Below are positions 17,880 to 57,400 of a stretch of 64,000 nucleotides of DNA, in pieces. Numbering within the stretch: position 1 is the first letter of the stretch; each line of letters opens with the position of its first letter. A model generated the notes under the pieces. That model was given only the letters and a program-made list of their open reading frames with translations, was not told the origin of the DNA and made no database searches. Origin of the DNA: Methanolacinia petrolearia DSM 11571 (GTDB lineage: Archaea; Halobacteriota; Methanomicrobia; Methanomicrobiales; Methanomicrobiaceae); the NCBI RefSeq assembly GCF_000147875.1, contig NC_014507.1:1488001-1552000 (forward strand). The letters are read 5' to 3'. The translations under genes were made by a program, and so were the position numbers.

Positions 17880-17924
17880 ACGAAAAAAACATTCGGGAGA
17901 CAATTCTCCCATTAATTTTTTATT

Positions 17925-40800: not shown

Positions 40801-40898
40801 ATCGAGAGATATCTGTTCCGGGCCGCCGATTAATCTATCTTAGCATATATAGCTGATGCCAAATTTTTCGGGACACCTCAGGTAAACAAAAATTGATT

Positions 40899-40935
40899 TA
40901 ACTAAAATTAATAGTTAGATTTTTAACAGTTGCAT
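40899..40935 (+). promoter_or_regulatory. Operator-like sequence before binding-protein operon
   Basis: The inverted repeat TAACTA (40899-40904) and TAGTTA (40912-40917) is followed by GATTTTTAACAGTTGC. The right half, AATAGTTAGATTTTTAACAG, resembles the shared operator before the FeoA gene (minus strand) and the PadR gene. It lies about 20-50 bases before the ATG at 40951. Confidence 0.5.
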
Positions 40936-40950
40936 ATCAAACCATTGCTG

Positions 40951-42084
40951 ATGAAAAACAACTTCCGCTTATGCATAATTGCCGGACTGATATTGATCAT
41001 AGCAATATTATGCATCTTTTTTTCTTTGCGGCCTGATACCGGCCCTTTGGAAAATAATACGACAGCAGAAAAAATCGTAATCACGGACGCTCCCGGCAGG
41101 GTGATTACACTTGATGAGCCCGCCCAAAGAATTGCGTGTACCCATTATTCCGTATCCGAAGCAATCCAGCTCGCCGGAGCATGGGACAAGGTAGTTGCAA
41201 GAGACGGATACTTATCGAATGAGAAATTTTATCCCGGTGTCGAAGACCTGCCTGTTATCTGCCCTGCCAGGAATCCGATGGATATCAATTACGAGGAGAT
41301 CATCGCGATCCATCCGGATGTTTTAATTCTGCCGAACTTCAGCTGGCTCGGAGATACCGACGAGATAATCGGCAAGCTTGAACCTGATGTGCACGTTGTC
41401 TTCGTCGATACATTAAACCCGGATACATTCTGCGACACTATCGAGACTATCGGAAAGATCGCCGGGACGGAGGACGAAGCCGGGGAATATATCGAATTTT
41501 ACAGGAGCATCTATGATCCTGTCGTGAGCATTACATCCGACATTTCGAAAGAAGATCGTCCTAATGTCTTCTTCAAGGCTTTTTCAGATGAAATTGACGA
41601 GATCAAGACGTACGGCAGTGAATTCCCCGGGGGAAATGAGCTCTTCAATGCCGCAGGCGTCAGGAATGTCGCGGAAGATCTGCCGATAAATTGTGCGGAT
41701 GTTGACGAAGAATGGCTTTTGGAGCAGGACATCGATGCCATTGCAGCCATATGCTGGGACAAAAAATATCCCGAGACGTTCGGGTATAATGTTTCGGACC
41801 CTTCCGCCGCGAGAATTCAGGCAGAAGAGATCAAAGACGAGATCGGTGAACTGGACGTCTTTTCAAATTCGAAGGCGGTTGAAGACGACGAGATCTATCT
41901 CCTGAACAATGAGATGACCTCCACTCCCAGGTATATTATTACGATAGCATACATGGCGAAATGGTTCCATCCCGACCTTTTCGAAGACCTCGACCCGAAG
42001 GCGCTCCACCAGGAATACCTGGACCGGTTCATACCCGGCGACTACAACCTATCGGAATGCGGACTGATGGTCTATCCCGATTAA
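40951..42084 (+). CDS. FecB/BtuF-type ABC substrate-binding protein 1
   Basis: A 377-residue protein anchored outside the membrane by an N-terminal hydrophobic helix. There is no lipobox Cys at a usual position. The mature part is a two-lobed periplasmic-binding fold of the iron-chelate/cobalamin type: ITDAPGRVITLDEPAQRIA at the entry, YEEIIAIHPDVLILP, DIDAIAAICWDKKYPE, and IAYMAKWFHPDLF near the end. It is about 45% similar by eye to the protein at 43252 and shares a partner permease. The ligand could be a metal chelate, corrinoid or other metal complex. The ATG at 40951 is preferred over an in-frame TTG at 40930; neither has a strong ribosome site. Confidence 0.85.
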   Translation: MKNNFRLCIIAGLILIIAILCIFFSLRPDTGPLENNTTAEKIVITDAPGRVITLDEPAQRIACTHYSVSEAIQLAGAWDKVVARDGYLSNEKFYPGVEDLPVICPARNPMDINYEEIIAIHPDVLILPNFSWLGDTDEIIGKLEPDVHVVFVDTLNPDTFCDTIETIGKIAGTEDEAGEYIEFYRSIYDPVVSITSDISKEDRPNVFFKAFSDEIDEIKTYGSEFPGGNELFNAAGVRNVAEDLPINCADVDEEWLLEQDIDAIAAICWDKKYPETFGYNVSDPSAARIQAEEIKDEIGELDVFSNSKAVEDDEIYLLNNEMTSTPRYIITIAYMAKWFHPDLFEDLDPKALHQEYLDRFIPGDYNLSECGLMVYPD

Positions 42085-42096
42085 ATGGTGAATAAA

Positions 42097-43122
42097 ATGA
42101 AAGAATTACCTGAAATCAAAGAATCACTTACAGGGATCTACGATATATCCCTGTCGCCGGTAAGGGCAAACGCTCTTGCGGCAGGTGCCGAACTCAGAAT
42201 ATTCGATCACCTGAACAGCCCGGTGACAGCGAAAAAAATTGCGGAAGAATGCAACTATTGTGCAGAAACGACCGAAGAATTCCTGAACGTACTTGTGGCA
42301 TGCGGTCTGCTCGAAAAGAAGAACAGCGAGTATCTCAACCGCCCGGACACAAGGCAGTTCCTCGTATCCGACAGCCCCACTTATTACGGCAAAATTCTGC
42401 TGCGTGAATACCACCGAATCTCGATGACCCCGGCGGAGATTATTGAAACCGTTAAAGGCGGTCCGGCCGGCCCGAAGGAAGAGGACGATATGGGCCTTGA
42501 GGAATTCTGGTCGGACTACGCCCGCTCGATTGCCAACTGGGAGCGTTCGGGTTCTGCGCAAAAACTCGGTGAGATAATTTCAAAACTCCCTCAATTCGAC
42601 TCCTTCGAACATATGCTCGATCTCGGAGGCGGGCCGGGACTGATGGGAATAGCGGTTCTGCAACATCACCCGTCAATGACCGGGGTCGTATTCGATCAGC
42701 CTGCCGTTGCGAAAGTAGCCGGAGAATTCATCAGCTATTACGGGCTGGACGCGAGAATGACAGTTATGGGAGGCAATTACCTGCAGGACTCTTTTGGAAC
42801 CGGCTACGATCTGATCCTCTGCAGTTGTACGCTGAACTTCGCTCTCGGGTGCATGGACGAGATGGTCCAAAAGATATATTATGCCCTGAATCCGGGCGGA
42901 GTATTCGCAAGCCTCCACGACGGGATCTTCAACGAAGGAACGGCCCCGGAATTTCACATTCTGAATATGATGTCAAGTGCATTTTCAGGATTCAACTGGG
43001 GGATCAAAAAAGGTCTTATCGCCGAATCGATGAAGAAAGCAGGGTTTGAAGAAGTAACCTCCGAATCGATCGATCTCGATGTCGGACCGTTCGATCTCGA
43101 CATAGCTGTAAAGGGATCATAA
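42097..43122 (+). CDS. SAM-dependent methyltransferase (O-methyltransferase fold)
   Basis: About 341 residues. The N-terminal winged-helix dimerisation domain (about 10-100: ALAAGAELRIFDHL, TAKKIAEECN, GLLEKKNSEY) precedes a class I methyltransferase domain with the SAM motif MLDLGGGPGLMGIAV (near 170-185) and ALNPGGVFASLHDG. The architecture matches O-methyltransferases of the hydroxyindole/caffeate type, but the substrate is unknown. It sits directly after binding protein 1 and before binding protein 2. That suggests it modifies the imported or exported ligand. GGTGA lies before the ATG at 42097; an ATG at 42085 abutting the preceding stop is the alternative. Confidence 0.85.
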   Translation: MKELPEIKESLTGIYDISLSPVRANALAAGAELRIFDHLNSPVTAKKIAEECNYCAETTEEFLNVLVACGLLEKKNSEYLNRPDTRQFLVSDSPTYYGKILLREYHRISMTPAEIIETVKGGPAGPKEEDDMGLEEFWSDYARSIANWERSGSAQKLGEIISKLPQFDSFEHMLDLGGGPGLMGIAVLQHHPSMTGVVFDQPAVAKVAGEFISYYGLDARMTVMGGNYLQDSFGTGYDLILCSCTLNFALGCMDEMVQKIYYALNPGGVFASLHDGIFNEGTAPEFHILNMMSSAFSGFNWGIKKGLIAESMKKAGFEEVTSESIDLDVGPFDLDIAVKGS

Positions 43123-43251: not shown

Positions 43252-44403
43252 ATGTTTCAAAAACCAGGAATATTCATAGCCATCTTTTTGGTTGTCGTTG
43301 CAATGACTGCAGCTATACTGTTGTTGACTACAGGTGAAGAAGAGAACGAAGCACTTCAGGCGGAAGACAGGATCACGATCACCGATGCATACGGGAGAGA
43401 GGTTACACTCGACGGCCCGGCCGAAAGAGTTGCATACTCGCATCACTCTCTAAGCGACTCGCTCAGGCTGATCGGGGCCTGGGACCAGGTCGTGGGGAGA
43501 GACGCGAATATAGACGACGAACACCTCTTCCCCGGCTTCGAGGATATTCCTGAAATATCCCAGAAAATGAATGCCATGGATCTCAACTATGAGGAGATCG
43601 TTGAAATTCATCCCGACGTCCTGATCCTCCCGAAATTCGACTGGTATACAGGGGCCGACGATATAATTCAGACACTCGAACCCGACATTCCGGTCGTCTT
43701 CCTTAACACTCTCGATCCGAGTCCGGAGATCTTCAACGAAACGATCCAGAAGCTCGGATTAATTACAGGAAATGAAGAGAGAGCAGACGAGTACCTGGAA
43801 TTTTATAACGGCGTCTACGATACGATCGTATCGAAAACCTCGCTTGTCGATCCTGAAGATCGTCCGCGTGTATTCTTCAGGGGAATCGGAAAAACATCTG
43901 CCGACCAGATTGTAACATACGGGAAAGACATGGAATGGTTCCAAAATTTTCTCGATGCGGCAGGTGCGGAGAATGTGGCAAAAGATCTGCCAATATCTTA
44001 CGGCGATGTCGATCGCGAGTGGCTGCTCGAACAGGATATCGACGTGATCGTTGTCAAATGCTGGGAAGAACGTTATCCCGGTGTTTTCGGTTATTCTGCA
44101 ACAGACCGCGGGGAAGCTATTGCAGGTGCCGAAGAGATTCGCAACGCGATCATGGAGATGGATGTCTTTTCAAATACCGATGCGGTCAGAAACGGCGACG
44201 TGTACCTTTTTGATGATTCGATGGACGCCACGCAGCGGAATATCGTCGGACTGGCCTATCTTGCAAAATGGCTTTATCCCGAAGAGTTCAGCGACCTCGA
44301 CCCCGAAGCAGTTCACCAGGAATATATCAGCCGTTTCATGGAGGCGGACTATAATCTCTCACAATCGGGACTGTTTGCATACCCGGCGGAGGCTGTGGTA
44401 TAG
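43252..44403 (+). CDS. FecB/BtuF-type ABC substrate-binding protein 2
   Basis: A 383-residue paralogue of the protein at 40951, with an uncleaved N-terminal anchor (IFIAIFLVVVAMTAAILLL) and an extracytoplasmic binding fold: ITDAYGREVTLDGPAERVA, YEEIVEIHPDVLILP, DIDVIVVKCWEERYPG, LAYLAKWLYPEEF. It lies upstream of the permease and ATPase and is probably the primary partner. Having two binding proteins for one permease widens or tunes ligand range. The tandem repeats just upstream indicate its own regulated promoter. Confidence 0.87.
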   Translation: MFQKPGIFIAIFLVVVAMTAAILLLTTGEEENEALQAEDRITITDAYGREVTLDGPAERVAYSHHSLSDSLRLIGAWDQVVGRDANIDDEHLFPGFEDIPEISQKMNAMDLNYEEIVEIHPDVLILPKFDWYTGADDIIQTLEPDIPVVFLNTLDPSPEIFNETIQKLGLITGNEERADEYLEFYNGVYDTIVSKTSLVDPEDRPRVFFRGIGKTSADQIVTYGKDMEWFQNFLDAAGAENVAKDLPISYGDVDREWLLEQDIDVIVVKCWEERYPGVFGYSATDRGEAIAGAEEIRNAIMEMDVFSNTDAVRNGDVYLFDDSMDATQRNIVGLAYLAKWLYPEEFSDLDPEAVHQEYISRFMEADYNLSQSGLFAYPAEAVV

Positions 44404-44450: not shown

Positions 44451-45527
44451 ATGGAAACAAATTTGAAAGGAAACGACGGCGGTTTTGACATATGCGAAGG
44501 CTATCACAGCTACAGGAGTAGAAAAACATTATTCATCATCGGACTTGTGGCTGCCATAATAATATGCATAGGAATAGCTGCATCCAGCGGTTCTGCCGAT
44601 GTGGCGCTGGCGGATGCATATAACTCAATTCTCGGAAAGATATTCCCCGAAAGTTTCGAGAGTTCATGGACGGCGGAGATCTGCCTGTGGAAACTCCGCT
44701 TCCCGAGAATATTCATGGCGCTTTTTACCGGAATTGCACTCGGCGTTGCAGGCTGTGCAATGCAGGCGACACTGAAGAACCCGCTTGCCGATCCCTATAT
44801 GCTCGGCGTGGCCTCGGCCGCAGGACTCGGGGCGACTATCGCGATCGTCTTCGGGGCGGGAATTCTTGCAGGGACATACGCTATTATCGGAAACGCATTT
44901 CTGTTTTCACTTATCGCCGCAGGAATTATTATCCTGATCGGCGAGAAGAAGGACGGTTCCGCGGAGGCGATGATCCTCACGGGAATAGCACTGATGTTCT
45001 TCTTCCAGGCGGTCACCACGTTTATCGCGTACTTCGCGGATTCGGAAGCGGTAAAGAGCGCTATGTTCTGGATGGTGGGAGATCTCGGTAAAGTCTCATG
45101 GGGCGATTTCTATTTCGTAATTCCCATCGTAGCAGTTGTCGTTCCCGTAATCGTATGGAAATCATGGGACCTGAATATTCTCGGCGGGGGCGACGAGAGT
45201 GCAACAAGTCTCGGGATAAACGTCAAGCATTTCAGGATCATGATCGTCGCCCTGTCCTCTCTCCTTGTGGCAGGAGTCGTAAGTTTTGTAGGTGCGATCG
45301 GCTTCATCGGCCTGGTTTCGCCCCATATCTGCCGGCTTATAATCGGAGGCGACAACAGGTTTCTGATACCGGCCTCGGGTCTTATGGGAGCGGTCTTCCT
45401 GATTATCGCCGATACTATTGCACGGACTGCCCTCTCGCCGGTAATTATTCCGGTCGGCGTAATCACCGCCTTTCTGGGGGTTCCGTTCTTTGTCTACCTG
45501 ATATTGTTCGGGAGGGCGAAATGCTGA
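44451..45527 (+). CDS. FecCD-type ABC permease
   Basis: A 358-residue inner membrane permease of the iron-chelate/cobalamin class (BtuC/FecCD). About ten hydrophobic segments follow a polar 30-residue N-terminus. Family hallmarks are LRFPRIFMALFTGIALGVAG, NPLADPYMLGVASAAGLGA, and VSFVGAIGFIGLVSPHICR, the coupling region that contacts the ATPase. It imports the ligand supplied by the upstream binding proteins. GGAG precedes the ATG by nine bases. Its last codons overlap the ATPase start by seven bases. Confidence 0.93.
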   Translation: METNLKGNDGGFDICEGYHSYRSRKTLFIIGLVAAIIICIGIAASSGSADVALADAYNSILGKIFPESFESSWTAEICLWKLRFPRIFMALFTGIALGVAGCAMQATLKNPLADPYMLGVASAAGLGATIAIVFGAGILAGTYAIIGNAFLFSLIAAGIIILIGEKKDGSAEAMILTGIALMFFFQAVTTFIAYFADSEAVKSAMFWMVGDLGKVSWGDFYFVIPIVAVVVPVIVWKSWDLNILGGGDESATSLGINVKHFRIMIVALSSLLVAGVVSFVGAIGFIGLVSPHICRLIIGGDNRFLIPASGLMGAVFLIIADTIARTALSPVIIPVGVITAFLGVPFFVYLILFGRAKC

Positions 45528-46291
45528 AGCTGAAGATTGAAAACCTCTCGCTTTCGTATGGGACGGAAAAGGTCCTGAAGAACATTTCGATGGAATTCGA
45601 AGAACCGGGAATAGTGGGCATCATCGGCCCCAATGGGGCGGGTAAGAGTACACTCCTCCGGTGCATCAACAATATACTTAAACCGCAGGCAGGAAGAGTG
45701 CTAATCGACGACAAGGATATCAGCAGGATGGAAGCAACGGAGATCGCGGGAAAGCTCGGGTACGTCCCGCAGGAATTTCCGGTGTCGTTCCTTTCGACTG
45801 TCTTCGATACCGTTCTGACCGGTCGCCGCCCGTACACCTCGTGGAGAATCGGACAGAAAGATCTGAAGATTGCAGCGGATGTCATAAAAATGCTGGATCT
45901 CGAAGATATCGCACTCAGGAATATATCCGAACTGTCGGGGGGCCAGCAGCAGCGGGTAATGATCGCGAGGGCATTAGCACAGCAGACCGGGATTCTGCTA
46001 CTTGACGAACCCACATCGAAACTGGATATCAGGCACCAGCTTGAGGTTATGGATATCATCAAAAAACTCTCGGCGGAAAAACAACTTCTCTCCATAATCG
46101 TCATGCACGACCTGAACCTGGCGTCGAGGTACACCGATAAAATCCTGATGCTGAAGTCGGGGCGGATTGCATATTCGGGAAGCCCGGCAGATGTCCTTAC
46201 ACGGGAAAATATCGGAGACGTCTACGGAGTCGATGCAAAAATAATTATTGAAGACGACCTGCCCCATGTAATTCCCGTCCAGCCGATCTGA
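45521..46291 (+). CDS. FecE/BtuD-type ABC ATPase
   Basis: A 256-residue cytoplasmic ATPase with Walker A GPNGAGKS (36-43), Q-loop VPQEF, signature LSGGQQQRV, Walker B ILLLDEPTSKLD and switch VMHDLNLA. The order and spacing match the iron-chelate/B12 importer group. It overlaps the permease stop (ATGCTGA), so the two are translated together. Upstream in-frame codons within the permease are not part of this gene. It completes importer 1 of the region. Confidence 0.95.
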   Translation: MLKLKIENLSLSYGTEKVLKNISMEFEEPGIVGIIGPNGAGKSTLLRCINNILKPQAGRVLIDDKDISRMEATEIAGKLGYVPQEFPVSFLSTVFDTVLTGRRPYTSWRIGQKDLKIAADVIKMLDLEDIALRNISELSGGQQQRVMIARALAQQTGILLLDEPTSKLDIRHQLEVMDIIKKLSAEKQLLSIIVMHDLNLASRYTDKILMLKSGRIAYSGSPADVLTRENIGDVYGVDAKIIIEDDLPHVIPVQPI

Positions 46292-46405: not shown

Positions 46406-46484
46406 TTTAGGCACTTGTTTTTACAAACCTAAAACCAACATAAGTACAATAGTTTGTTAACCAACCGTTGTAAAAACAACTATT
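46406..46484 (+). promoter_or_regulatory. Stacked inverted repeats before feoA-activase operon
   Basis: Three nested signals are visible. First, TTTAGG (46406-46411) and CCTAAA (46428-46433), which resembles DtxR/MntR-type metal-regulator boxes. Second, TTGT-N4-ACAA at 46415-46426 and again at 46468-46479. Third, AATAGTT (46448-46454) and AACTATT (46478-46484). On the minus strand, the part from about 46484 to 46446 aligns with the PadR upstream operator. Metal-responsive control fits the FeoA gene that follows but is inferred. Confidence 0.6.
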
Positions 46485-46532: not shown

Positions 46533-46775
46533 ATGCTCAAGAAATTCATAGAACTGAAATACGGAGAAGAAGGGATTATCACGGATATCACCGGATTTGC
46601 GGCTGAGTTAAATGACATCGGAATCTACAAAGGCAAAACGATCCGGATGCTTTCAGTACTGCCGATCAGGAAGAACGTCATCGTGGCGATAATGGGACAA
46701 AGGATCATTCTGTCTCCGGAAATGGCCTCGGATATCCTTGTAGAACCGGCTATGGAGACGGAATTTGCGAGGTGA
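46533..46775 (+). CDS. feoA: FeoA-domain protein
   Basis: An 80-residue SH3-like FeoA protein (YGEEGIITDITG, LNDIGIYKGKTIRMLS, VAIMGQRIILSPEMASDI). FeoA normally assists the iron transporter FeoB, and FeoA-like domains also occur in metal regulators. No feoB is present: the next gene, seven bases later, encodes a large activase-type iron-sulfur ATPase. That pairing suggests a role in iron supply or regulation for that enzyme. I start at 46533, where GGAG lies five bases upstream. An ATG at 46497 has no ribosome site and would add 12 residues. Confidence 0.85.
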   Translation: MLKKFIELKYGEEGIITDITGFAAELNDIGIYKGKTIRMLSVLPIRKNVIVAIMGQRIILSPEMASDILVEPAMETEFAR

Positions 46776-46781
46776 TGAATT

Positions 46782-49700
46782 ATGGATCAGGCAGTAACAG
46801 GGATAAAAGATAACCAGGCGGCAGCATTTGAAAACAATGTCATTTCAGGAATAAATCCGTCATACAGCATAGGAATCGATATAGGCTATTCATCTGTAAA
46901 GATCGCACTGGTCGACGACTACAATGACGTCGTATACACGGATTACGTCCTGCACAAGGGAAAGATCAGGGAAAAACTTACAAAAGTTCTGGCGAGGCTT
47001 TCGGAACTGTATGAAACCGGCGATATAATCTACGGCGGCATAACGGGAAGCGAAAGCAGAATACTCTCACCGATCTACGGTAAAAATCATGTAAAGGACA
47101 TCCCGGCGTTAATCGAAGGATGCACCAGGCAGGAACACGGTGCATGCTCGATTATGGATATAGGGGGGGAGAACGCCAGGTATATAACCGGTTTCGGGGA
47201 CGGCAGCAGATCAAACGTTGAAATATCGATGAACCCGAACTGCTCTGCAGGAACCGGTTCCTTCCTCGAAGAGCAGGTTTCAAGACTCAATCTTGATATC
47301 GGGGACTATTCGGCCTGTGCCGCCAAAAGCAAAACCATCCCGCGGATTGCAGGGAGATGCAGCGTCTTTGCGAAGACCGACATTATCCATCACCAGCAGG
47401 AAGGAGTTCCGGTTGAAGATATTCTCCAGGGGCTTGCCTATGCACTTGTAAGAAATTATCGCGGAGCGGTCGTCAGAAAACTGCCTGTCAGGGCCCCGGT
47501 CGTATTCACCGGGGGAGTTGCATTAAACGAGGCAATTGAAAAGGCAATCAAAGATGTCTTCAACCTGGGAGACGGAGAGCTTATTGTTCCCGGGATGTGC
47601 GCCGAAACCCAGGCAATCGGAGCAGCTATAATCGCCAAAAAAGACTGTCTCGGGTTGAATCTCAAGGCACTGAGAGGCGATCCCCGGCTCCTGAACGAAT
47701 GCAATAGTTACGAAGACCAGGATGTGAAACTTCCAGCCCTCGGAATTTTTGGAAATAACGACAGCAGAGAAAAGCATATCTGCAAACCCTTCAACCGCAG
47801 TAACGGAAAGATCAGGTGTTTTCTCGGGGTCGATACGGGTTCGACAAGCACGAATCTTGTATTGATCGACGAGGATAACGAGATCATCGCATACAGGTAC
47901 CTGCGTACACTCGGCGATCCTGTGAAGGCGGTCTTCACCGGCCTAAGGGAACTCGGAGACGAGTTAACCGGGACGGGAGACAACATCGAGATCGCCGGAG
48001 TAGGAACAACCGGGTCCGGACGATATATGATCGCCAGGACCATAGGAGCCGACGTAATAAAGGACGAGATTACTGCACAGGCGAAGGCGGCCTCGACAAT
48101 AGACAACACCACGGATACAATCTTTGAAATCGGAGGGCAGGATTCGAAGTTCATCAGCCTTAATGACGGAAGGGTAACCGATTTCCAGATGAACAAGATC
48201 TGTGCCGCAGGAACGGGATCATTCATTGAAGAGCAGTCGAACAAGTTCGAGATTCCCATAGACGAGTTCGGGGAGATCGCATTAAAAAGTAAAAAACCAG
48301 TCAACCTCGGGGAAAGGTGCACCGTTTTCATAGAGACGAGCATCGCATCCCGGCTTGCAGGCGGCACTCCTACGGAAGATATAGTATCCGGCCTGTGCTA
48401 TTCGATCGCAAAAAATTACCTCAACAGGGTCGTGGGACAGAAGAAGATCGGCGATAAAATCTTCCTGCAGGGCGGGATCGCATACAACCAGGGTGTCGTA
48501 AACGCCTTCAGGGCGCTGACAGGAAAAGAGGTGACCGTCCCCCCGTTCTTCAGCGTCACCGGGGCCTACGGCTCCGCACTGCTTACCAAAGAAGAGATCG
48601 GCACGAAAAAAACCGGCTTTAAGGGATTTTACCAGGACGAATCAGGGGATGTCAATGAAGCATCAAAAGAGCAGGAACCGGCCGTCGACAACGAACCCGA
48701 ATTCAGCAGAGCCGTAAACGACATCATCTTCGAAGGGTACGACGGAAAGATCGACCCGGCGAAGAAGACGATCGGAATGCCACGGGCCCTGTTCACCTAC
48801 GGGATGTACCCGATGTTCAGCGCATTCTTCAGGGCCCTCGGGTATAATGTCGTCCTCTCCGATCCCACTAATGAAGAGACGGTAAGACTGGGGCAGGAAT
48901 ACTCGCTGGACGAGACCTGCTACCCGGTCAAACTGGTAAACGGCCATGTGGCAGAGCTCATGAACAAAAACGTGGACTACATCTTTTTCCCGGATCTGTA
49001 CACTGTTCTTCACCCGGGCTCGCACTCGCGGCAGGATTTCGGCTGCCCGTACATGCAGCTCGCCTTCAAACTCGTAAACAGGGCGATGGAGCTCGACAAA
49101 AAAGGAATAAAACTCCTTTCGCCGACAATCGGCTTCAGTCTCGGGGAGGAATTCATGAAAAAGGGCTTCATGGATCTCGGCAGGCAGCTTGACAGGAGTC
49201 CTGAAGAAACAGGCAGAGGACTGGGATGCGGAATGGAAGCTTTCAATGCATTTGAAAAGAGGGTTGAAGAGAAAGGCAGGGAGATGGTTAAGGATCTAAA
49301 ACCGGACGAGAAGGCCTTCGTTCTGATCTCGAAGACATACGGAGTGGCAGATCCCGCACTGAATCTCGGGATTCCCGAAAAACTCAAAGAAATGGGTTAC
49401 AAAGTTCTTGCTTTCTACAATCTTCCGGAAAGCGACATCTCGAAAGAGCACCCGAATATGTTCTGGCCGTTCGGACAGCATATACTGGAGGCCGCACAGG
49501 TCGTACGCAGTCACCCGAATCTCTACGCAATATTCCTGACCCACCACGGCTGCGGACCGGACACTGTGTTCACGCATTATTTCAGGGATATTATGGGGGA
49601 TAAGCCCTACCTGAACATAGAAATCGACGAACATTCGTCGGGTGTCGGCGTAACTACGAGGCTTGAAGCATTCGTAAACAGCCTGAGGCACATCAGCGAA

Positions 49701-50870
49701 GGAGACGCAGAAGATATGAATGTATACCCCGGCCGTGTTGCCCATAATGAAACGGATATCAAAACGGACATTTCGGATCTTCCCGAAAATGCAAGGGTTT
49801 ACATTCCAAACGTTTACCCCTATTCGCAATTATTTTGCGAATTCCTGAAGACATCGGGGATCGACTGCAGGATTATCCCGGAAACCGACGGACGATCGCT
49901 CGATGAAGGGCGAAAACACATAATGACCAATGAATACCTCTCCATGACCGCTCTTATAGGAGATGTGCTGAGCATACCGGGAATCCGTGAACACGATATG
50001 AACCCGGGATTCATTTATATTCCCCAGGCGGAGGGTGCCGAAGTGGACGGGCAGTACAACCGTATGATAAGAACAGTCCTCGACAGGGAAAGATTAAGGG
50101 GAGTTGGAATCATCGCCCCGTATTATGAGGATCTTATATCGGGAAACAAAAGGCATCTCGACCAGATCTTCCTGATCCTTGTTGCAGGAGATCTTATCCG
50201 GACTGCACATTATGCTTCGAGGGATAATTACCTCAAAAAGATTACCCGGATGATTGACGACGGAAATCTGAACATCGAATCGCTGCTTGCTCTTTCGAAA
50301 AAGATTCTCTCCGAACTGAGAGTGAGTGAATTCAAAGGGGCGATATTCGCCGGCGGAGAATTGTTCGTCCTCTATAATGATTACCTGAATGCCTTTACCT
50401 TCAGGGAAATCGAAGACAAAGGCTACCGGGTTGCTTATGCACCACTAAGCGAGTGCATGTGGCATTTCTGGACTGATATCATTAAACGGGCGGACGAGGA
50501 GAAAAGAGAACTTCTGCTGCCGATGATCGATCTCCTTGAAAGCTACATCTCGGAGATGAACATCTCGCTTGAAGAGATGAGTCCCTTTGAAGACAACCCG
50601 TCAGGTCTCATAGAGAGAGCGGATGCATCCACCGGCTATTACGCAGGGGCTTTCGGAAGATACAGGGAGTCCAAAATTCTCGGGGAGATGAAAGGCATAG
50701 ACGGCATCATCAATGTCTCATCGCTGTATGAAAATACGGCGATCACTCTCAATACACTTCACAAGGGATTTGACGGCAGGAATTCCCTGCCGGTGTTAAA
50801 CCTTTCATTCGACGGAAATGAAAACGAGAACGACAAGGTCAGGATCGAATCGTTCCTGTATTATCTCTAA
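46782..50870 (+). CDS. Acyl-CoA dehydratase activase-type fusion protein
   Basis: A 1362-residue cytosolic protein. Two actin-like BadF/BcrA/HgdC ATPase domains are in tandem: about 28-295 (SIGIDIGYSSVKIALVDD, NCSAGTGSFLEEQ) and about 345-610 (GVDTGSTSTNLVLIDEDN, CAAGTGSFIEEQ, GGQDSKF). Then come a DUF2229-like region (about 660-870: IGMPRALFTYGMYPMFSAFF, DETCYPVKLVNGH) and an HgdB/double-cubane-like region (about 880-1360, with THHGCGPD and ECMWHFW). Known relatives hydrolyse ATP to inject low-potential electrons into a partner, or into their own FeS cluster. All parts appear to be in one chain here. The substrate is unknown. It is in an operon with feoA and a small Cys protein. Confidence 0.9.
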   Translation: MDQAVTGIKDNQAAAFENNVISGINPSYSIGIDIGYSSVKIALVDDYNDVVYTDYVLHKGKIREKLTKVLARLSELYETGDIIYGGITGSESRILSPIYGKNHVKDIPALIEGCTRQEHGACSIMDIGGENARYITGFGDGSRSNVEISMNPNCSAGTGSFLEEQVSRLNLDIGDYSACAAKSKTIPRIAGRCSVFAKTDIIHHQQEGVPVEDILQGLAYALVRNYRGAVVRKLPVRAPVVFTGGVALNEAIEKAIKDVFNLGDGELIVPGMCAETQAIGAAIIAKKDCLGLNLKALRGDPRLLNECNSYEDQDVKLPALGIFGNNDSREKHICKPFNRSNGKIRCFLGVDTGSTSTNLVLIDEDNEIIAYRYLRTLGDPVKAVFTGLRELGDELTGTGDNIEIAGVGTTGSGRYMIARTIGADVIKDEITAQAKAASTIDNTTDTIFEIGGQDSKFISLNDGRVTDFQMNKICAAGTGSFIEEQSNKFEIPIDEFGEIALKSKKPVNLGERCTVFIETSIASRLAGGTPTEDIVSGLCYSIAKNYLNRVVGQKKIGDKIFLQGGIAYNQGVVNAFRALTGKEVTVPPFFSVTGAYGSALLTKEEIGTKKTGFKGFYQDESGDVNEASKEQEPAVDNEPEFSRAVNDIIFEGYDGKIDPAKKTIGMPRALFTYGMYPMFSAFFRALGYNVVLSDPTNEETVRLGQEYSLDETCYPVKLVNGHVAELMNKNVDYIFFPDLYTVLHPGSHSRQDFGCPYMQLAFKLVNRAMELDKKGIKLLSPTIGFSLGEEFMKKGFMDLGRQLDRSPEETGRGLGCGMEAFNAFEKRVEEKGREMVKDLKPDEKAFVLISKTYGVADPALNLGIPEKLKEMGYKVLAFYNLPESDISKEHPNMFWPFGQHILEAAQVVRSHPNLYAIFLTHHGCGPDTVFTHYFRDIMGDKPYLNIEIDEHSSGVGVTTRLEAFVNSLRHISEGDAEDMNVYPGRVAHNETDIKTDISDLPENARVYIPNVYPYSQLFCEFLKTSGIDCRIIPETDGRSLDEGRKHIMTNEYLSMTALIGDVLSIPGIREHDMNPGFIYIPQAEGAEVDGQYNRMIRTVLDRERLRGVGIIAPYYEDLISGNKRHLDQIFLILVAGDLIRTAHYASRDNYLKKITRMIDDGNLNIESLLALSKKILSELRVSEFKGAIFAGGELFVLYNDYLNAFTFREIEDKGYRVAYAPLSECMWHFWTDIIKRADEEKRELLLPMIDLLESYISEMNISLEEMSPFEDNPSGLIERADASTGYYAGAFGRYRESKILGEMKGIDGIINVSSLYENTAITLNTLHKGFDGRNSLPVLNLSFDGNENENDKVRIESFLYYL

Positions 50871-50890
50871 GTATGCCGTGGTGCGATGAA

Positions 50891-51151
50891 ATGAAAAAAT
50901 ATCATTCTCCCCCGTTCGAATCCGGATATCATTCAGGAGAAATTAAAGAGGGAAATGAGACTATTTCGATCGAAGGCTGCAAAATGACATGCAGAAAGAA
51001 AGTGATCGATCATACCGGCAATATTGTGCAAAAAGAGGTATCGATAACGGATTTGGGAGTGAAAAAGAAGAACGGACATTGTTACCGTTTATATGATGTA
51101 GAAGAGACCGAAACGGCAGCAGAGGTGATCAAAAGAGACAGCGAAATATGA
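50891..51151 (+). CDS. Small Cys-containing hypothetical protein
   Basis: An 86-residue soluble protein (92 if the ATG at 50873 is used; GGTG before 50891 favours the shorter form). It contains CKMTC and a later Cys in NGHCYRLYDVEE, with mainly polar residues and no signal peptide. It immediately follows the activase-type gene and is surely in the same operon. I do not recognise a family. The Cys pair might bind metal or act in electron transfer with the activase, which is only suggested by position. Confidence 0.6.
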   Translation: MKKYHSPPFESGYHSGEIKEGNETISIEGCKMTCRKKVIDHTGNIVQKEVSITDLGVKKKNGHCYRLYDVEETETAAEVIKRDSEI

Positions 51152-51194: not shown

Positions 51195-51490
51195 CCCACA
51201 TCCTCACGTACGTTTAGATATTGCCAGCAGATCTTTCTCTGACAACCCCGGCACCGGCGGCCTAGCCGCCGGACGGCCCCCGCCCAGGGGCCTTGCCCTG
51301 AGAGAGTTCTCTCTCTTTGCACGCCCGGGGACCGGCGAGGGTCCCCCGGGCTGTTGAATATAAGCATCTCTCCGTTCAGGGGACACTTGTCTGTCCCCTG
51401 AGCGGCTATCTCAACATAGAGGCCCCGAGGCCGGGGCCGATCCGCGGGCTGTCTCCGGCGGCCCGCGGCGAGAGGTTGCCAACAATGTGC
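51195..51490 (+). repeat. Multi-hairpin repeat family B, copy 3
   Basis: The best-preserved copy. It has six consecutive inverted repeats: CCGGCGGC/GCCGCCGG (51254-51272, loop CTA), GGCCCC/GGGGCC (51275-51292), GCCCGGGGACC/GGTCCCCCGGGC (about 51322-51351), TCAGGGGACA/TGTCCCCTGA (about 51376-51401), GGCCCCG/CGGGGCC (51421-51438, loop AGGC), and CCGCGGGC/GCCCGCGG (about 51442-51468). The left end has CTCACGTACGTTTAGATAT as in copy 1. It lies between the activase operon and the PadR gene. Confidence 0.87.
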
Positions 51491-51557
51491 TTAATGGATA
51501 TCGATCCCGAATCGATATTAACAATCCAGAAATTCTGTCTCAATAATCATAACTTTT

Positions 51558-51634
51558 ATACCATAGTTAATACCATAGTTATTATTCAACGGTTTGAAAA
51601 CCAACTGTGTGCTTTTGAACAGTTTGAATAATAA
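51558..51634 (+). promoter_or_regulatory. Operator/leader region of the padR operon
   Basis: A direct repeat, ATACCATAGTTA twice (51558-51580), is followed by a perfect 11-base inverted repeat, TTATTATTCAA (51579-51589) and TTGAATAATAA (51624-51634). A perfect inner repeat GGTTT/AAACC lies at 51591-51602. The span 51575-51606 also aligns with the FeoA upstream operator. It ends 26 bases before the PadR ATG, as expected for autoregulation. Confidence 0.65.
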
Positions 51635-51659: not shown

Positions 51660-52139
51660 ATGAAAGAAGTATGGAAATTTGCTCCTGAAAACGGGAAAGA
51701 GAGAGGATTTCTGACAATCCTCATACTTCATTCACTCGACAGGGAGCCCAAATCCGGTTACGATCTCCTGAAAGAGATTGAAGAAAAAACAAACGGGGCA
51801 TGGGTTCCGAACAAGGGAACTTTATATCCCATATTAAAATCTCTTGAAGAAGAGGGGCAGATCCAGGTAAAAGAGATCGGGAAACGCTCCAAGAGGATCT
51901 ACGAACTGACGGATTCGGGAAGGCAGACCATATCTGATCTAAGGGATAAAAAAGAAGTATCCGAGGCACGTGTTAATTTCTTCAAAAAAATGCACCTGGA
52001 AATCTTCGGGGAAGAGAACATCTCGTTTATCAATCTCATGATGGACATGAGATTCTATGTCGAGGATCTACCCGCAGAAAAAAAAGAGAAAGCAATCGGG
52101 ATGATTTCCAGTACTTTTGAAGAGATTAAACGGCTTTAA
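51660..52139 (+). CDS. PadR-family transcriptional regulator
   Basis: A 159-residue protein with an N-terminal winged helix of the PadR type: ILHSLDREPKSGYDLLKEIEEKT, GTLYPILKSLEEEGQIQV and RSKRIYELTDSGRQTI. A helical C-terminal dimerisation part follows. PadR proteins usually repress their own operon and release DNA on binding a ligand. The ATG at 51660 gives the family-typical N-terminus; an extension to 51594 overlaps the operator. It is the first gene of the run TrmO-like, FmdE, methyltransferase and ABC importer, so it probably controls them. Confidence 0.92.
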   Translation: MKEVWKFAPENGKERGFLTILILHSLDREPKSGYDLLKEIEEKTNGAWVPNKGTLYPILKSLEEEGQIQVKEIGKRSKRIYELTDSGRQTISDLRDKKEVSEARVNFFKKMHLEIFGEENISFINLMMDMRFYVEDLPAEKKEKAIGMISSTFEEIKRL

Positions 52140-52187
52140 GAGAAAAATAACAATAACATATTGCGGCCATCGGAGATTTCACCAGAT

Positions 52188-52754
52188 ATGAACGATGAAG
52201 CCGCCGTACAGGCAGGATGCCTGAATGAATTTGTTTTAAACCCCGTGGGAATCATAAAAAACGGGATTAAAACTCCGCCGCTTGTTGCCGGAGAACAGGG
52301 ACTGACCGTCAATGAATCATGCGAATCCGCGATTGAAAAGATGGCGAACTCCCCTGAAACCCTTTCCGAAATCATACTGAATGACGAACTGGAGGAACTT
52401 CTCGACGGAATAGACGACTATTCTCACCTGGTTATCGTCTACTGGGGGCATGAAATCGGAGATCAGGGAAGGAAGCTCAAAAGAATCCATCCTGCAGGTC
52501 AGGAGGATTACCCGCTTAAAGGAATATACTCCACTTTCAGCCCGGCAAGACCTAACCCTGTACTGGTTACGGTAGTAAAGCTAATCGAAAGAGACGGCCC
52601 CAGGCTGACGGTCCGGGGGCTGGATGCAATAGACAACAGCCCTGTCCTCGACATCAAACCGTATGTCGCTGAATTATTCTCTTTTAAAAACACTCAAATC
52701 CCCGGTTGGATTACAAAAATTCTCGAAGAATTCGTAGATGAAAGCAGGAAGTGA
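52188..52754 (+). CDS. TrmO/TsaA-like (UPF0066) protein
   Basis: A 188-residue protein of the TrmO/UPF0066 beta-barrel family, with LNPVGIIKNG at the N-terminus and the conserved YSHLVIVYWGH, GIYSTFSPARPNPVLVTVVKL and LDIKPYVAEL. Characterised members methylate the t6A nucleotide of tRNA using S-adenosylmethionine. Others, found next to metal or molybdopterin genes, have unknown substrates. Its setting in a metal-type ABC operon makes a non-tRNA substrate conceivable. I prefer the ATG at 52188 (GGAG 12 bases upstream) over a TTG at 52161. Its stop lies four bases before the FmdE start. Confidence 0.88.
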   Translation: MNDEAAVQAGCLNEFVLNPVGIIKNGIKTPPLVAGEQGLTVNESCESAIEKMANSPETLSEIILNDELEELLDGIDDYSHLVIVYWGHEIGDQGRKLKRIHPAGQEDYPLKGIYSTFSPARPNPVLVTVVKLIERDGPRLTVRGLDAIDNSPVLDIKPYVAELFSFKNTQIPGWITKILEEFVDESRK

Positions 52755-52758
52755 TCTT

Positions 52759-53592
52759 ATGACGGCTATTAAGGAAATGACAATGGGAGAAGAATTTTGT
52801 TCGGATTTTTTCAACGACGAAGATCTTGAAGACCTGAAACAAAATCCCCGCTCAAAGTTTATCGAAGCGATTCGGAATATGGATGCGGCGACATGCCTCG
52901 TCAAAACCGCCGAGATACACGGCCATTTCTGCCCGGGAAGCGCTCTCGGCGTGATGGCATCCCTTTATGGATTCTCCCTCCTCGGGGACGAAGCAATCAG
53001 TTCGGACGGGATAATGGAAGACCTGCTCGCGATCGCAGAAGTAAATGCATGCTTCGCAGACGGCATACAGGCAGTCTCGGGCTGTACGCTCGGAAACAAC
53101 TCTCTAATCTACCGTGATCTCGGTAAACATGCGGTAACCTTCGCAGTTCGCGGAAAAGAAGAAGGAATACGAATAAGAGTTCGCCCTGAATTCATGGACT
53201 ACATCATTAAAGAAGTCCCCGAATTCTACCCCCTGATGGAGAAGGTCATAATGAGACGCGAGGGCGGCCCTTCGGAACTTAAAAGATTCAGGCAAAAAGG
53301 CCGCGAAGCAGCTTTCGTAATAATAAAAAAACCGTTCGAAGATCTTTTCGAGGCGAAAACCGTGGTCCCCGACATCCCGGACTATGCACCGATTACAGGC
53401 AGTTTCGTCTGCCCCGAATGCGGAGAACAGGTCATGGCAACAAAGGTCTGGAAGACCGGCCTGCATAAAAGAAAATGCTTCGATTGTATCGGAAGATATT
53501 TTGAACTTGACGGAAGCGGAATCAGAAAAAAAGACCTCCGGCCGGAGAAGAAAGTCAAAAAACAGAATCACGGACCGGATAAATTCCTGTAG
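52759..53592 (+). CDS. FmdE family protein
   Basis: A 277-residue protein. The N-terminal FmdE domain has the diagnostic HGHFCPGSALGVMASLYGF (about 54-72) and later VNACFADGIQAVSGCTLGNN, whose Cys/His residues can hold a metal. The C-terminus bears a four-Cys zinc-ribbon-like motif (CPEC with CFDC about 25 residues later). FmdE was named for co-purification with formylmethanofuran dehydrogenase, but its function is not settled. Many homologues neighbour molybdate, tungstate or metal-chelate transporters, as here. The start at 52759 follows AGGAAGTGA. It is tightly linked to the TrmO-like and methyltransferase genes. Confidence 0.92.
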   Translation: MTAIKEMTMGEEFCSDFFNDEDLEDLKQNPRSKFIEAIRNMDAATCLVKTAEIHGHFCPGSALGVMASLYGFSLLGDEAISSDGIMEDLLAIAEVNACFADGIQAVSGCTLGNNSLIYRDLGKHAVTFAVRGKEEGIRIRVRPEFMDYIIKEVPEFYPLMEKVIMRREGGPSELKRFRQKGREAAFVIIKKPFEDLFEAKTVVPDIPDYAPITGSFVCPECGEQVMATKVWKTGLHKRKCFDCIGRYFELDGSGIRKKDLRPEKKVKKQNHGPDKFL

Positions 53593-53603: not shown

Positions 53604-54221
53604 ATGGATTCTGCTAATAATCGCTCTCATAACTGCCGGACGGGTGAGAGAGATCACCACCGTGGAAGAGGCCCGACCAGCTTCTGGATGCAAGATCCCG
53701 AACTTATTTTTACGGAACTGGATTTAAAGCATGGAGACGTCTTTCTCGATCTCGGGTGCGGTACCGGCGACTACTCGATCTGTGCCGCCGAAGAGATCGG
53801 AGAATCGGGCATCGTTTATGCTGCGGACATAAACCGGAACCTGATAGACGACCTGCTCGAAAATTCAGGACAACTCGGGTTGAACAACATAAAAGGAGTC
53901 ATAAGCGATATCCACGAAACCCTGCCGTTTGAAGATTCTTCAATAGATGTATGCCTGATCTCGACGGTTCTTCACTCGGTAGATCTTGAAAACTGCGGGA
54001 AAGCTCTATTCACCGAAATCGCCAGGATATTAAAACCGCAGGGACGTCTGTTCGTGATCGAATGCAAAAAGGAAGAGACCGGTTTCGGTCCCCCGCTCCA
54101 GATGCGGCTCTCACCGGAAGCGATTAAATCTTATGCATCTTCCTGCGGCTTAAACTGGATCTCAATGACGGATCTCGGCTATAATTACATGATTCGATTC
54201 TCACCGGAAGAGGGGCCGTAA
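53604..54221 (+). CDS. Class I SAM-dependent methyltransferase
   Basis: A 205-residue methyltransferase of the UbiE/type 11 kind. The SAM motif FLDLGCGTGDYSICAA is near 48-63, followed by YAADINRN, LPFEDSSIDVCLISTVLHSV and ILKPQGRLFVIECKK. The N-terminal 30 residues are His/Arg/Asn-rich (DHHRGRGPTSFW), a feature seen in transporter-linked members. The substrate is unknown. Its stop and the next start share a base (TAATG), so it is coupled to the binding-protein gene. The first importer cluster also contains a methyltransferase. Confidence 0.9.
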   Translation: MDSANNRSHNCRTGERDHHRGRGPTSFWMQDPELIFTELDLKHGDVFLDLGCGTGDYSICAAEEIGESGIVYAADINRNLIDDLLENSGQLGLNNIKGVISDIHETLPFEDSSIDVCLISTVLHSVDLENCGKALFTEIARILKPQGRLFVIECKKEETGFGPPLQMRLSPEAIKSYASSCGLNWISMTDLGYNYMIRFSPEEGP

Positions 54222-55447
54222 TGAAGCAGGCGATGTTCTTAATCCTCGTAATCCTCCTGATCTTTGCAGCCGTTCCGGGTTGCACGCAGACCGGCGGAAC
54301 CGGGGATATCCAACAGGTTTCCGATGATGACTACAGGATTGTCACCGACAGCAGGGGAGTCGAAGTAAAACTACCCGTCGATATCGAAAGGGTTGCAACG
54401 GTATCCGACGGTCTCATCGAAGAAGTGATGTACATTCTCGGAGTCGACGACAGGATCGTCGCCATCGGATCGGAAGGCCTTCTTTCATCCGCAAAATCCG
54501 GGTATTCATATCCACTTGACGACGGGACGAATGTAACCGCTGCCGGAGGGAACAATGTCGCAACAGTTCTTTCACCGGGGCTGGACGACCTTCCCCTCTT
54601 CGTCGATTACGGCGTTGCCATGAACTACGAAACTCTCGCGGCTGCCGATCCCGATGTAGTCATCCTTCGTCTCGGCAGTTCCGCATTCCTTTCATGCGAG
54701 GATGAGAATGCAGAGAAGAGCATCGAAAAGATTGAGTCGCTCGGAATACCGGTAGTCGTCCTCTACAGCCCCAACTGCTATGAAGATTCAGATCCTACAG
54801 CGATATCCGACGAGATCGAAATAATCGGCCGGGTCTTCGGGAAAGAAGACGAAGCAGAAGATATTGCAGCAATCCTTGAATCGATGAAGAACGACATACA
54901 GGAAAGAACCGCATCCGTCGGCGAAGACGAGAAAAAAGACGTCCTCGTACTCGGCCTCTCATCCTCGTACAGGACGGAGACCGCGGCAGGAATCGCATGG
55001 GGACTGAAAACGACCGAGTCCTACATGATTGAAAACCTGATAAATGCAAGGAATGCATTCCGCTCCGATGCAGGGAGTTTCCAGGTTATCAACACGGAAC
55101 AGATCCTTTCCATGGACCCCGACGTAATAATTCTCGGGACCGCATCAGGATATCACCCGCCGGGAGAACTCTATAATGCGACCTATTACAAGAACCTCCG
55201 TGAATTGCGGGCCGTTAAAGATCATAACGTTTCATCGCTCCCATACGCACCAAGGAACGCCGCAAAAAGACTGGAGTATCCCATCGACCTGATGGTGACG
55301 GCAAAAGCGGTGTATCCCGAACTCTTCGAAGATATCGATCTCAACGAATGGATTCTTTCATTCTACCAGGATGTCTACGGGGTCGATTCCGGTAAAGCGG
55401 CCGAACTGCGTTCCGCACAGCTTATGGACTGGTGTATCGGTGAGTAA
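54221..55447 (+). CDS. FecB/BtuF-type ABC substrate-binding lipoprotein
   Basis: A 408-residue lipoprotein (lipobox AAVPGC, Cys21) with a chelate-binding fold: IVTDSRGVEVKLPVDIERVA, YETLAAADPDVVILRLG and LSMDPDVIILGTASG. It is only distantly similar to the two binding proteins at 40.9 and 43.2 kb and is longer, so the ligand probably differs. Its FmdE and TrmO neighbours hint at a molybdenum-, tungsten- or other metal-related ligand, but this is not shown by sequence. Confidence 0.9.
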   Translation: MKQAMFLILVILLIFAAVPGCTQTGGTGDIQQVSDDDYRIVTDSRGVEVKLPVDIERVATVSDGLIEEVMYILGVDDRIVAIGSEGLLSSAKSGYSYPLDDGTNVTAAGGNNVATVLSPGLDDLPLFVDYGVAMNYETLAAADPDVVILRLGSSAFLSCEDENAEKSIEKIESLGIPVVVLYSPNCYEDSDPTAISDEIEIIGRVFGKEDEAEDIAAILESMKNDIQERTASVGEDEKKDVLVLGLSSSYRTETAAGIAWGLKTTESYMIENLINARNAFRSDAGSFQVINTEQILSMDPDVIILGTASGYHPPGELYNATYYKNLRELRAVKDHNVSSLPYAPRNAAKRLEYPIDLMVTAKAVYPELFEDIDLNEWILSFYQDVYGVDSGKAAELRSAQLMDWCIGE

Positions 55448-55509: not shown

Positions 55510-56589
55510 ATGACCGAAACCACGGAGTTCAGGCAGCATATAACAGACCTGGGATATGATATAAAGAACGGGTTTGTCGAAGGGAGAAAGATAGCGGTTT
55601 TACTTGTTATCTTCTTCATTTTAATTATATCCGCATCGGTTGCCGTAATTCTCGGTACCTACGACATAACGATTCCGGAAGTCGCCCGGACCATCTTAAC
55701 GCACCTCACCTTCGGGAACGTCGAAGAAATCCCGAAAACACAGGACACGATTATATGGGATATCAGGCTTCCGAGAGTTCTTCTTGCTATATTCGTTGGC
55801 GGAGCTCTCGCAATCTCGGGCGCAGTCTTCCAGGGTGTGTTCAGGAATCCGCTCGTCGAGCCGTATATCCTGGGTGTTTCGTCAGGTGCTGCATTCGGTG
55901 CGGCTCTCGCGATCGTTTTCCCTGCAATATTTTTCTCGGTTCAGCTCTCCGCATTTGCATTCGGATCTATGGCAGTCGGCATGGCATACCTGCTCTCGCG
56001 TGTAAGAGGTGAAACCCCGGTCGTAACGCTTGTGCTTGCGGGAATTATAATCGGGTCCATCTTTTCCGCACTGGTATCCCTGCTGAAGTACATCTCGGAC
56101 GATTCGGCACTGAGAGAGATCGTCTTCTGGCTCATGGGCGGATTTTATTATGCGTCATGGAGCGACGTATCGCTACTCGCTCCGGCCGTCGTCATATGCC
56201 TTATTATAATCTGGATACTGGGCTGGAAACTGAATATCCTGTCAATGGGAGACGAAGAGGCAATTACTCTCGGGATAAACCCGGAAAAATACAAACTCAT
56301 ATTAATCGCACTTGCGACGGCAATTACCGCATTTGCAGTATCTTTCGTAGGAATTATTGCATGGGTGGGGCTCATGATGCCTCATGCATCGAGGCTGATC
56401 CTCGGCCCTGACAACAGGTTCGTGATCCCCGCCGCATTCATGATGGGCGGATTCTACCTGATAGTCTGCGATACACTTGCAAGAACTCTTACAAGTGCCG
56501 AGGTCCCCGTGGGAATCATCGCTTCGATCCTCGGGGCCCCGTACCTGTGCTATCTCCTTAGAAACAAAGGAAAAGAGATATTCGGGTGA
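55510..56589 (+). CDS. FecCD-type ABC permease
   Basis: A 359-residue membrane permease with about ten hydrophobic segments. Hallmarks are IRLPRVLLAIFVGGALAISGAV, NPLVEPYILGVSSGAAFGAAL, LMGGFYYASWSDV and VSFVGIIAWVGLMMPHASR. It follows the binding-protein gene by 62 bases and precedes the ATPase by four. It belongs to the same class as the permease at 44451 but is clearly separate in sequence. Confidence 0.93.
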   Translation: MTETTEFRQHITDLGYDIKNGFVEGRKIAVLLVIFFILIISASVAVILGTYDITIPEVARTILTHLTFGNVEEIPKTQDTIIWDIRLPRVLLAIFVGGALAISGAVFQGVFRNPLVEPYILGVSSGAAFGAALAIVFPAIFFSVQLSAFAFGSMAVGMAYLLSRVRGETPVVTLVLAGIIIGSIFSALVSLLKYISDDSALREIVFWLMGGFYYASWSDVSLLAPAVVICLIIIWILGWKLNILSMGDEEAITLGINPEKYKLILIALATAITAFAVSFVGIIAWVGLMMPHASRLILGPDNRFVIPAAFMMGGFYLIVCDTLARTLTSAEVPVGIIASILGAPYLCYLLRNKGKEIFG

Positions 56590-56593
56590 ATTC

Positions 56594-57400
56594 ATGATCG
56601 ACGCAGACGATATTCGATTCTCGTACGGCAACCACCCTGTTCTCTCCGGCGTCTCTTTTCACGTGGACGAAGGAGAACTCTGCGGACTCTTCGGGCCCAA
56701 CGGTGCAGGCAAGACGACACTTTTCAGGTGCTGCCTGGGATTTCTGGAATTGCAGGGAGGAAGGATCTCCATCAACGGTGAACCGACCACCGGCAAAAGA
56801 ATTGAAGACCTGGCAAAGATCGTATCCTATGTCCCGCAGGAGCATAAACCGCCGTTCCCGTATCTTGTAAAGGAGATCGTTCTCATGGGCAGGACTCCCC
56901 ACATGGGAGGAATATTCGGCTTGAAACGAAGAGACAAGGAGATCGCAATGGACAATCTTGATATCCTGGGGATCCCGGATCTCTCCGATCGGCCCTACAA
57001 TCAGCTCTCGGGCGGCCAGCGCCAGATGGTCCTGATGGCACGGGCGCTTGCACAGGATACTCCGGTACTATTTCTCGACGAACCGACAAGCTCTCTTGAT
57101 TTTCAGAACCAGATGAAGATCTGGAGACTGATGCGTGAGATCGCAGAGGACGGAAAGACAATCATCGCATGCAGCCACGACCCGAACCATGTATCCTGGT
57201 TCTGCGACAGGGTGGTGGTAATAGGAAACGGCGGAGTTGTTGCGAACGGTGCACCTTCGGACGTTATCTGCGAGGATGTCCTGTCAAAGATCTACGGGAA
57301 CAGCTGTTCGGTTAGCACTGTCGACAATATCAGGATTGTGATACCCGGCGATCTCCTGCGGAAAAATGAAACTGCTAAAAAATTATCGCGTTTTGGTTAG
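56594..57400 (+). CDS. FecE/BtuD-type ABC ATPase
   Basis: A 268-residue ATPase with Walker A GPNGAGKT (34-41), Q-loop VPQEHKPPF, signature LSGGQRQMV, Walker B VLFLDEPTSSLD and switch ACSHDPNHV. The start at 56594 (ATG four bases after the permease stop) fits the family. In-frame codons further upstream lie inside the permease. It is the last gene of the padR operon and converges with carB, with a 24-base gap. Confidence 0.95.
   Translation: MIDADDIRFSYGNHPVLSGVSFHVDEGELCGLFGPNGAGKTTLFRCCLGFLELQGGRISINGEPTTGKRIEDLAKIVSYVPQEHKPPFPYLVKEIVLMGRTPHMGGIFGLKRRDKEIAMDNLDILGIPDLSDRPYNQLSGGQRQMVLMARALAQDTPVLFLDEPTSSLDFQNQMKIWRLMREIAEDGKTIIACSHDPNHVSWFCDRVVVIGNGGVVANGAPSDVICEDVLSKIYGNSCSVSTVDNIRIVIPGDLLRKNETAKKLSRFG

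Follow-up and report, generated by a model that had tools for sequence, protein, structure and literature searches.

What does a methanogen do with a 1362-residue protein that joins two ATPase activase domains to a dehydratase-like region and is encoded amid importer genes? The gene lies in a 64,000-nucleotide stretch of the Methanolacinia petrolearia DSM 11571 genome (the window, at 1488-1552 kb of a single contig of 2,843,290 bases). An earlier note had described a FeoA gene, an activase fusion and a small cysteine-containing protein at 46533-51151, and ORF and Pfam checks confirm all three:

46533 (ATG) to 46775 (stop), + strand: FeoA-domain protein (Pfam FeoA 46.2 bits, cut-off 23), not conserved with the activase
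46782 to 50870, + strand: 1362-aa protein, a predicted all-in-one ATP-dependent reductase (Pfam, fold models, cysteine pattern)
50873 to 51151, + strand: truncated DGC-domain protein of 92 aa with a GCxxxC motif (Pfam DGC 40.6 bits, cut-off 27; homologues 3′ of the activase in loci L086, L031 and L088)

The genes are separated by gaps of 6 bp and then 2 bp, all on the + strand, and because of this spacing feoA, the activase gene and the DGC gene are likely carried on one transcript.

That two activase domains and a dehydratase-like region share one chain, as the earlier note had read it, is borne out by Pfam, with BcrAD_BadFG matching in two stretches (230 bits) and DUF2229 at 207 bits, and by the predicted folds; CoA_E_activ matches at 285 bits. 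Activase 1 spans about residues 28-300 and activase 2 residues 348-601, followed by reductase unit 1 (about 660-970, with three cysteines) and reductase unit 2 (about 993-1362, with no conserved cysteine). A sequence search of the PDB matched the activase half alone, to structures of the HgdC/HadI type, and a sequence profile of the reductase part found no match there, so we turned to structure prediction. The AlphaFold2 model of residues 660-1362, made with 47 homologues, has a mean pLDDT of 91.4, and that of residues 993-1362 reaches 92.4. The best structural match to the unit 1 model (660-970) is HadC (3o3n_B; Z 15.8, rmsd 3.9 over 264 residues), followed closely by BzdN and DCCP, with the first unrelated row at Z 8.2, while the unit 2 model matches DCCP (Z 12.8, rmsd 4.4 over 264 residues) and HadC (Z 12.3), with the first unrelated row at 5.8. 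Profile comparison agrees: unit 1 is related to the HGD-D family with a probability of 95.8% (E 6.7e-9), and the two units are related to each other with a probability of 91.6% (E 8.1e-7). Because both units have reductase folds in the models and two activases precede them, the single chain would contain a counterpart for each of the four class I benzoyl-CoA reductase subunits. Activase domain 2 keeps a GGQDSK motif where domain 1 has GGENAR, so that the ATP sites of the two domains may be non-equivalent. Overall, the modelled architecture is supported as that of an ATP-driven low-potential reductase of the BCR/HAD/DCCP superfamily.

The cysteines narrow the choice of clusters. Exactly seven are invariant in 69 full-length homologues, with two in each activase domain (154/193 and 474/513), three in unit 1 (713, 755 and 924) and none in unit 2. 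The profile alignment places Cys713 and Cys924 on conserved cysteines of HGD-D, while Cys755 is unaligned and fits by order alone. In BzdO, a three-cysteine [4Fe-4S] site is formed by Cys95/128/380, while the double cubane of BzdN has six cysteine ligands (PMC11971306). Two cysteines per activase domain predict one bridging [4Fe-4S] cluster, and the three of unit 1, fitting a BzdO-type site, predict one substrate-side [4Fe-4S] cluster. A double cubane, which the earlier note had suggested, was rejected on this count: with three conserved cysteines in unit 1, against six in BzdN, and none in unit 2, such a cluster is unlikely in the 1362-aa protein.

Set beside known systems, the protein resembles the class I benzoyl-CoA reductases (BzdNOPQ, MbdONPQ, BcrABCD) in fold and in having two activase-type ATPase units and two reductase-type units. 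Those enzymes consist of four separate subunits, however, with a six-cysteine double cubane in BzdN, whereas the window protein is one chain with three conserved cysteines in unit 1 and none conserved in unit 2. It shares HgdC/HadI-type activase domains with the (R)-2-hydroxyacyl-CoA dehydratases (HadBC with HadI, HgdC), and HadC is the best structural match to unit 1; both Had subunits contain a cluster, in contrast to unit 2, which lacks conserved cysteines, and no acyl-CoA context was recognised for the window protein. DCCP (6ENO) with its reductase is alike in the fold of both units and in ATP-driven low-potential reduction, which is predicted for the window protein, but in DCCP six cysteines hold the cluster and the reductase is a subunit of its own, where the window protein has three cysteines and fused activases.

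Which partners belong to this enzyme? The earlier note had linked FeoA, as a FeoA without FeoB, to the activase. At the locus this stands, as the feoA operon contains no FeoB partner; the genome has two FeoB genes outside the window, near 306 kb and 2735 kb, each adjoining other FeoA copies. The proposed co-occurrence of feoA with the activase is not kept, as a 74%-identical orthologue lacks FeoA. A tblastn search with FeoA among the activase-homologue loci matches the window's own locus alone, and FeoA is absent from the 25 Pfam families listed for 88 small neighbours, beyond which one or two cases are possible. In L086 a 74-aa ORF with no Pfam match occupies its place. We rejected FeoA linkage as the core of the system on these three results, and FeoA is incidental to it. 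Compared with FeoAB ferrous iron transport, the island shares one FeoA-domain gene but differs in lacking FeoB and in that its FeoA is not conserved with the activase. The small protein has the CxxxC pair that was reported for it, present as GCKMTC, and its match covers positions 46-102 of the 106 in the DGC profile, the C-terminal half of the domain rather than all of it. Four archaeal genomes (the window's, L086, L031 and L088) have a DGC gene 3′ of the activase, and the relatives in L031 and L088 are full length.

The activase operon is flanked by two chelate-type ABC importers, of which the second forms an operon with PadR, TrmO_N, FmdE and methyltransferase genes:

40930 to 42084, + strand: Peripla_BP_2 substrate-binding protein of a chelate-type ABC importer (Pfam 124.3 bits; same place in L086)
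42085 to 43122, + strand: O-methyltransferase-like protein (Pfam Dimerisation + Methyltransf_2)
43252 to 44403, + strand: second Peripla_BP_2 binding protein (Pfam 125.8 bits; PDB relatives are iron/siderophore-type binding proteins)
44451 to 45527, + strand: FecCD-type importer permease (Pfam FecCD 302.5 bits)
45098 to 46291 (ORF as listed), + strand: importer ATPase (Pfam ABC_tran 121.9 bits); because the ABC domain begins at residue 144, translation probably starts near 45.5 kb
46445 to 46483, unstranded: operator-like site GTT-N8-AACCGTT-N8-AAC, 5′ of the feoA-activase unit
51578 to 51605, unstranded: operator-like site GTT-N7-AACGGTT-N7-AAC, 5′ of padR
51660 to 52139 (likely ATG 51660; ORF listed from 51594), + strand: PadR-family regulator (Pfam PadR 69.6 bits)
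52161 to 52754, + strand: TrmO_N/TsaA-domain protein (Pfam 85.7 bits)
52738 to 53592, + strand: FmdE-domain protein (Pfam FmdE 121.5 bits)
53604 to 54221, + strand: class I SAM methyltransferase, UbiE/ArsM-like (Pfam; family near 23/77 activase loci)
54221 to 55447, + strand: Peripla_BP_2 binding protein, second importer (Pfam 73.6 bits)
55510 to 56589, + strand: FecCD-type permease, second importer (Pfam 314.5 bits)
56477 to 57400 (listed ORF, with the real start probably further in), + strand: ATPase, second importer (Pfam ABC_tran 107.7 bits)

Solved structures related to these binding proteins do not reveal which metal is concerned. The O-methyltransferase-like gene sits between two chelate-type binding-protein genes, a position kept in L086. 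A dispersed, GC-rich repeat about 280-360 bp long occurs before the first importer (40458-40820) and in the interval between the DGC and PadR genes (51228-51509); the genome holds 62 matching stretches, many being pieces of one copy, and as RNA the repeat folds far better than shuffles (z -8.1), with no Rfam family match.

The operator-like sites follow one plan, an AACSGTT core with GTT and AAC flanks about one helical turn out. The pattern GTTTGNNAACCAAC occurs twice in the genome, at the activase-unit and padR promoters only, with 0 matches to the reversed control, and four of eight genomic matches to the looser AACSGTTN{7,9}AACNRT lie at the same promoters. The core is present in 18 of 21 archaeal upstream regions where shuffles predict 0.7 in all, a figure that is descriptive, since the shuffles keep base composition only and the motif was first spotted by eye. 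That the motif recurs in other genera supports the site independently. From this pattern we infer that the local PadR would bind the sites and co-regulate both transcription units.

The same block recurs in other archaea as activase-(DGC)-PadR-TrmO-FmdE-methyltransferase. The order activase-PadR-TrmO-FmdE-methyltransferase is found, complete or partial, in Methanolobus, Methanospirillum, Methanogenium and additional archaeal genomes; the PadR gene 3′ of archaeal activases is conserved, and TrmO and FmdE apparently form one ORF in L086, L089 and the bacterial locus L033. The activase gene itself is patchy, being present in 6 of the order's 199 genomes and in 7 of the 393 sampled across the phylum. 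In Methanogenium cariaci (L026, 7908-12050) it is split into three ORFs with two TGA and one TAA codon inside, reflecting either a decayed gene or sequencing errors. In a maximum-likelihood tree the methanogen activases form one clade inside the bacteria, which fits a single acquisition of the gene by methanogens.

One scan recovered 78 homologue loci from bacteria and archaea, with carriers among methanogens, sulfate reducers, clostridia, Bacteroidota and Synergistota. No functional study or characterised member of the family was found in the literature covered, which mostly excludes subscription papers. A 2024 paper, offering no functional evidence, describes a two-ATPase/DUF2229 fusion in Ruminococcus bins, adjoining a further HGD-D-like gene, as a proposed acyl-CoA reductase (PMC11362221). 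An ordinary acyl-CoA reductase or dehydratase would suit the superfamily membership, and the database names the family acyl-CoA dehydratase activase. We nevertheless consider this reading very improbable for the window protein: the genome encodes no separate HGD-D protein, whereas the Ruminococcus fusion adjoins one, and no acyl-CoA metabolism genes were recognised among the annotated recurrent neighbours at 77 loci. A setting mostly among such genes was what the earlier note had named as speaking against its own proposal.

To see what does surround the activases, genes within 3.5 kb were compared with those further out at 77 loci, the counts being approximate because ORF calls were greedy and clusters single-linkage. 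Enriched close by are CRP/FNR regulators (36 loci vs 4 further out), SsuA-like binding proteins (28 vs 1), small methyltransferases (23 vs 2), cupins (10 vs 2) and Fur (8 vs 2). These associations divide by clade. In a quick maximum-likelihood tree the window's activase falls in a 31-member clade (SH-aLRT 100), whose 30 other members have a methyltransferase nearby in 20 cases (vs 1/38 outside), Fur or DtxR in 8 (vs 1/38) and an SsuA-like protein in 3 (vs 23/38). TonB receptors, FmdE, FecCD importers and ArsP-like permeases are also neighbours in this clade. A second, more distant clade is accompanied by SsuABC-like importers, CRP/FNR regulators and cupins. Two unrelated types of ATP-driven reductase, activase fusion and nitrogenase-like, also lie curiously close together: L012 has NifH-like and NifD/E-like genes (15079-18488), with a relative of its NifD/E-like gene in L031 (1-684) and of its NifH-like gene in L074 (18122-18880).

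The importers of the second clade raise the possibility of an organic substrate. Here a small molecule from the neighbouring importers, such as a sulfonate, thio- or aromatic compound, would be reduced, and the metal regulators would reflect Fe-S demand or shared neighbourhoods. The SsuA-like proteins near the activase belong mainly to this clade, a plasmid has the order CRP-activase-SsuABC-cupin, and the known substrates of the superfamily are organic CoA esters (PMC11971306). That plasmid, from Paraclostridium bifermentans (L124, 5122-13444), carries two cupin genes, followed on the opposite strand by a hydroxylamine reductase (Hcp) gene. For the window's own clade, where SsuA-like proteins are rare and Fur/DtxR, TonB, FecCD and FmdE occur, we regard an organic substrate as rather unlikely.

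A tetrapyrrole is a further candidate: an imported corrinoid or relative might be reductively activated or remodelled (to Co(I), for instance), and the methyltransferase and the CbiX/FmdE-like neighbours would act in that pathway too. BtuCDF-like importers belong to the FecCD family, a CbiX-like protein lies 5′ of the activase in L003, and L036 and L080 contain cobalamin riboswitches. However, no riboswitch of L036, L080 or L025 is directly 5′ of the activase, none was found in the window or in eight loci, and the regulators adjoining the homologues are of Fur/DtxR/PadR types. The two TonB receptors that were tested fit a siderophore-receptor model best, ahead of the B12 model, at 197 and 215 bits (below the cut-off of 223.5). 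We judge the corrinoid reading unlikely.

A metal complex as substrate is the reading that the flanking FecCD importers and the FmdE of the archaeal block favour, as do the Fur/DtxR regulators, TonB receptors and RhtX/FptX-like transporters that adjoin homologues of the same clade. FmdE genes mostly adjoin metal-ion transporters (PMC2954224). MFS proteins at the two TonB loci resemble RhtX/FptX siderophore and AmpG transporters, and these matches, like those of the receptors, are below curated cut-offs, which counts against the metal reading. So do the FecCD importers, near only 7 of 77 activase homologues, and the neighbours of the second clade, and the reading gives no role to the methyltransferase or the TrmO-like protein. 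Siderophore-type and metal-regulated genes beside the homologues nonetheless suggest a role in handling imported metal complexes. Of the metal-coupled, ATP-driven electron transfer proposed in the earlier note, the reductase architecture, the metal-importer island and the clade's metal- and siderophore-type neighbours thus stand, while the part given to FeoA does not. The reduction potentials of Fe(III)-siderophores are very negative and reduction is often needed to release the iron (PMC11965169), and the BCR/HAD/DCCP superfamily delivers very low-potential electrons (PMC11971306), which makes metal-chelate reduction chemically reasonable. For the window's clade this reading is favoured but unproven.

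The best explanation, which we put forward tentatively and short of probable, is a one-chain ATP-dependent reductase that processes an imported metal complex in the window's island. What is computed are the domains, the predicted folds, the pattern of cysteines, the gene context and the operator-like sites; from these we infer, in the following scheme, which clusters are present, how electrons travel, that PadR binds and, most of all, what the substrate is. The two activase domains would pair within the chain around a [4Fe-4S] cluster, and ATP use would pass very low-potential electrons to the three-cysteine [4Fe-4S] site of reductase unit 1, while unit 2 would keep the fold but hold no cluster. 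Most likely, a metal complex from the adjacent FecCD-type importers, or its ligand, would be reduced and the metal released, with DGC, FmdE and possibly FeoA as metal-handling helpers and both transcription units under the local PadR.

The ferric-siderophore reductases FhuF and SIP/YqjH are unrelated proteins, alike in the proposed task of reductive metal release only, and use [2Fe-2S] or flavin and no ATP. ATP-driven low-potential electron transfer of this type is known from CoA-thioester chemistry and, in vitro, from DCCP. New here are an architecture that unites all four parts and has one predicted substrate-side cluster, the operator-like sites common to both transcription units, and a clade linked to metals. 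One gene suffices for expression, and the two-cluster prediction is directly checkable by spectroscopy. It is conceivable, and more doubtful than the scheme for this island, that anaerobes generally spend ATP in this way, under local PadR, Fur or DtxR control, to free metal from chelates whose stability puts them beyond flavin- or NAD(P)H-dependent reductases. If true, ATP-driven low-potential chemistry would extend to metal acquisition, through a widespread one-chain version of the enzyme with one metal-linked clade.
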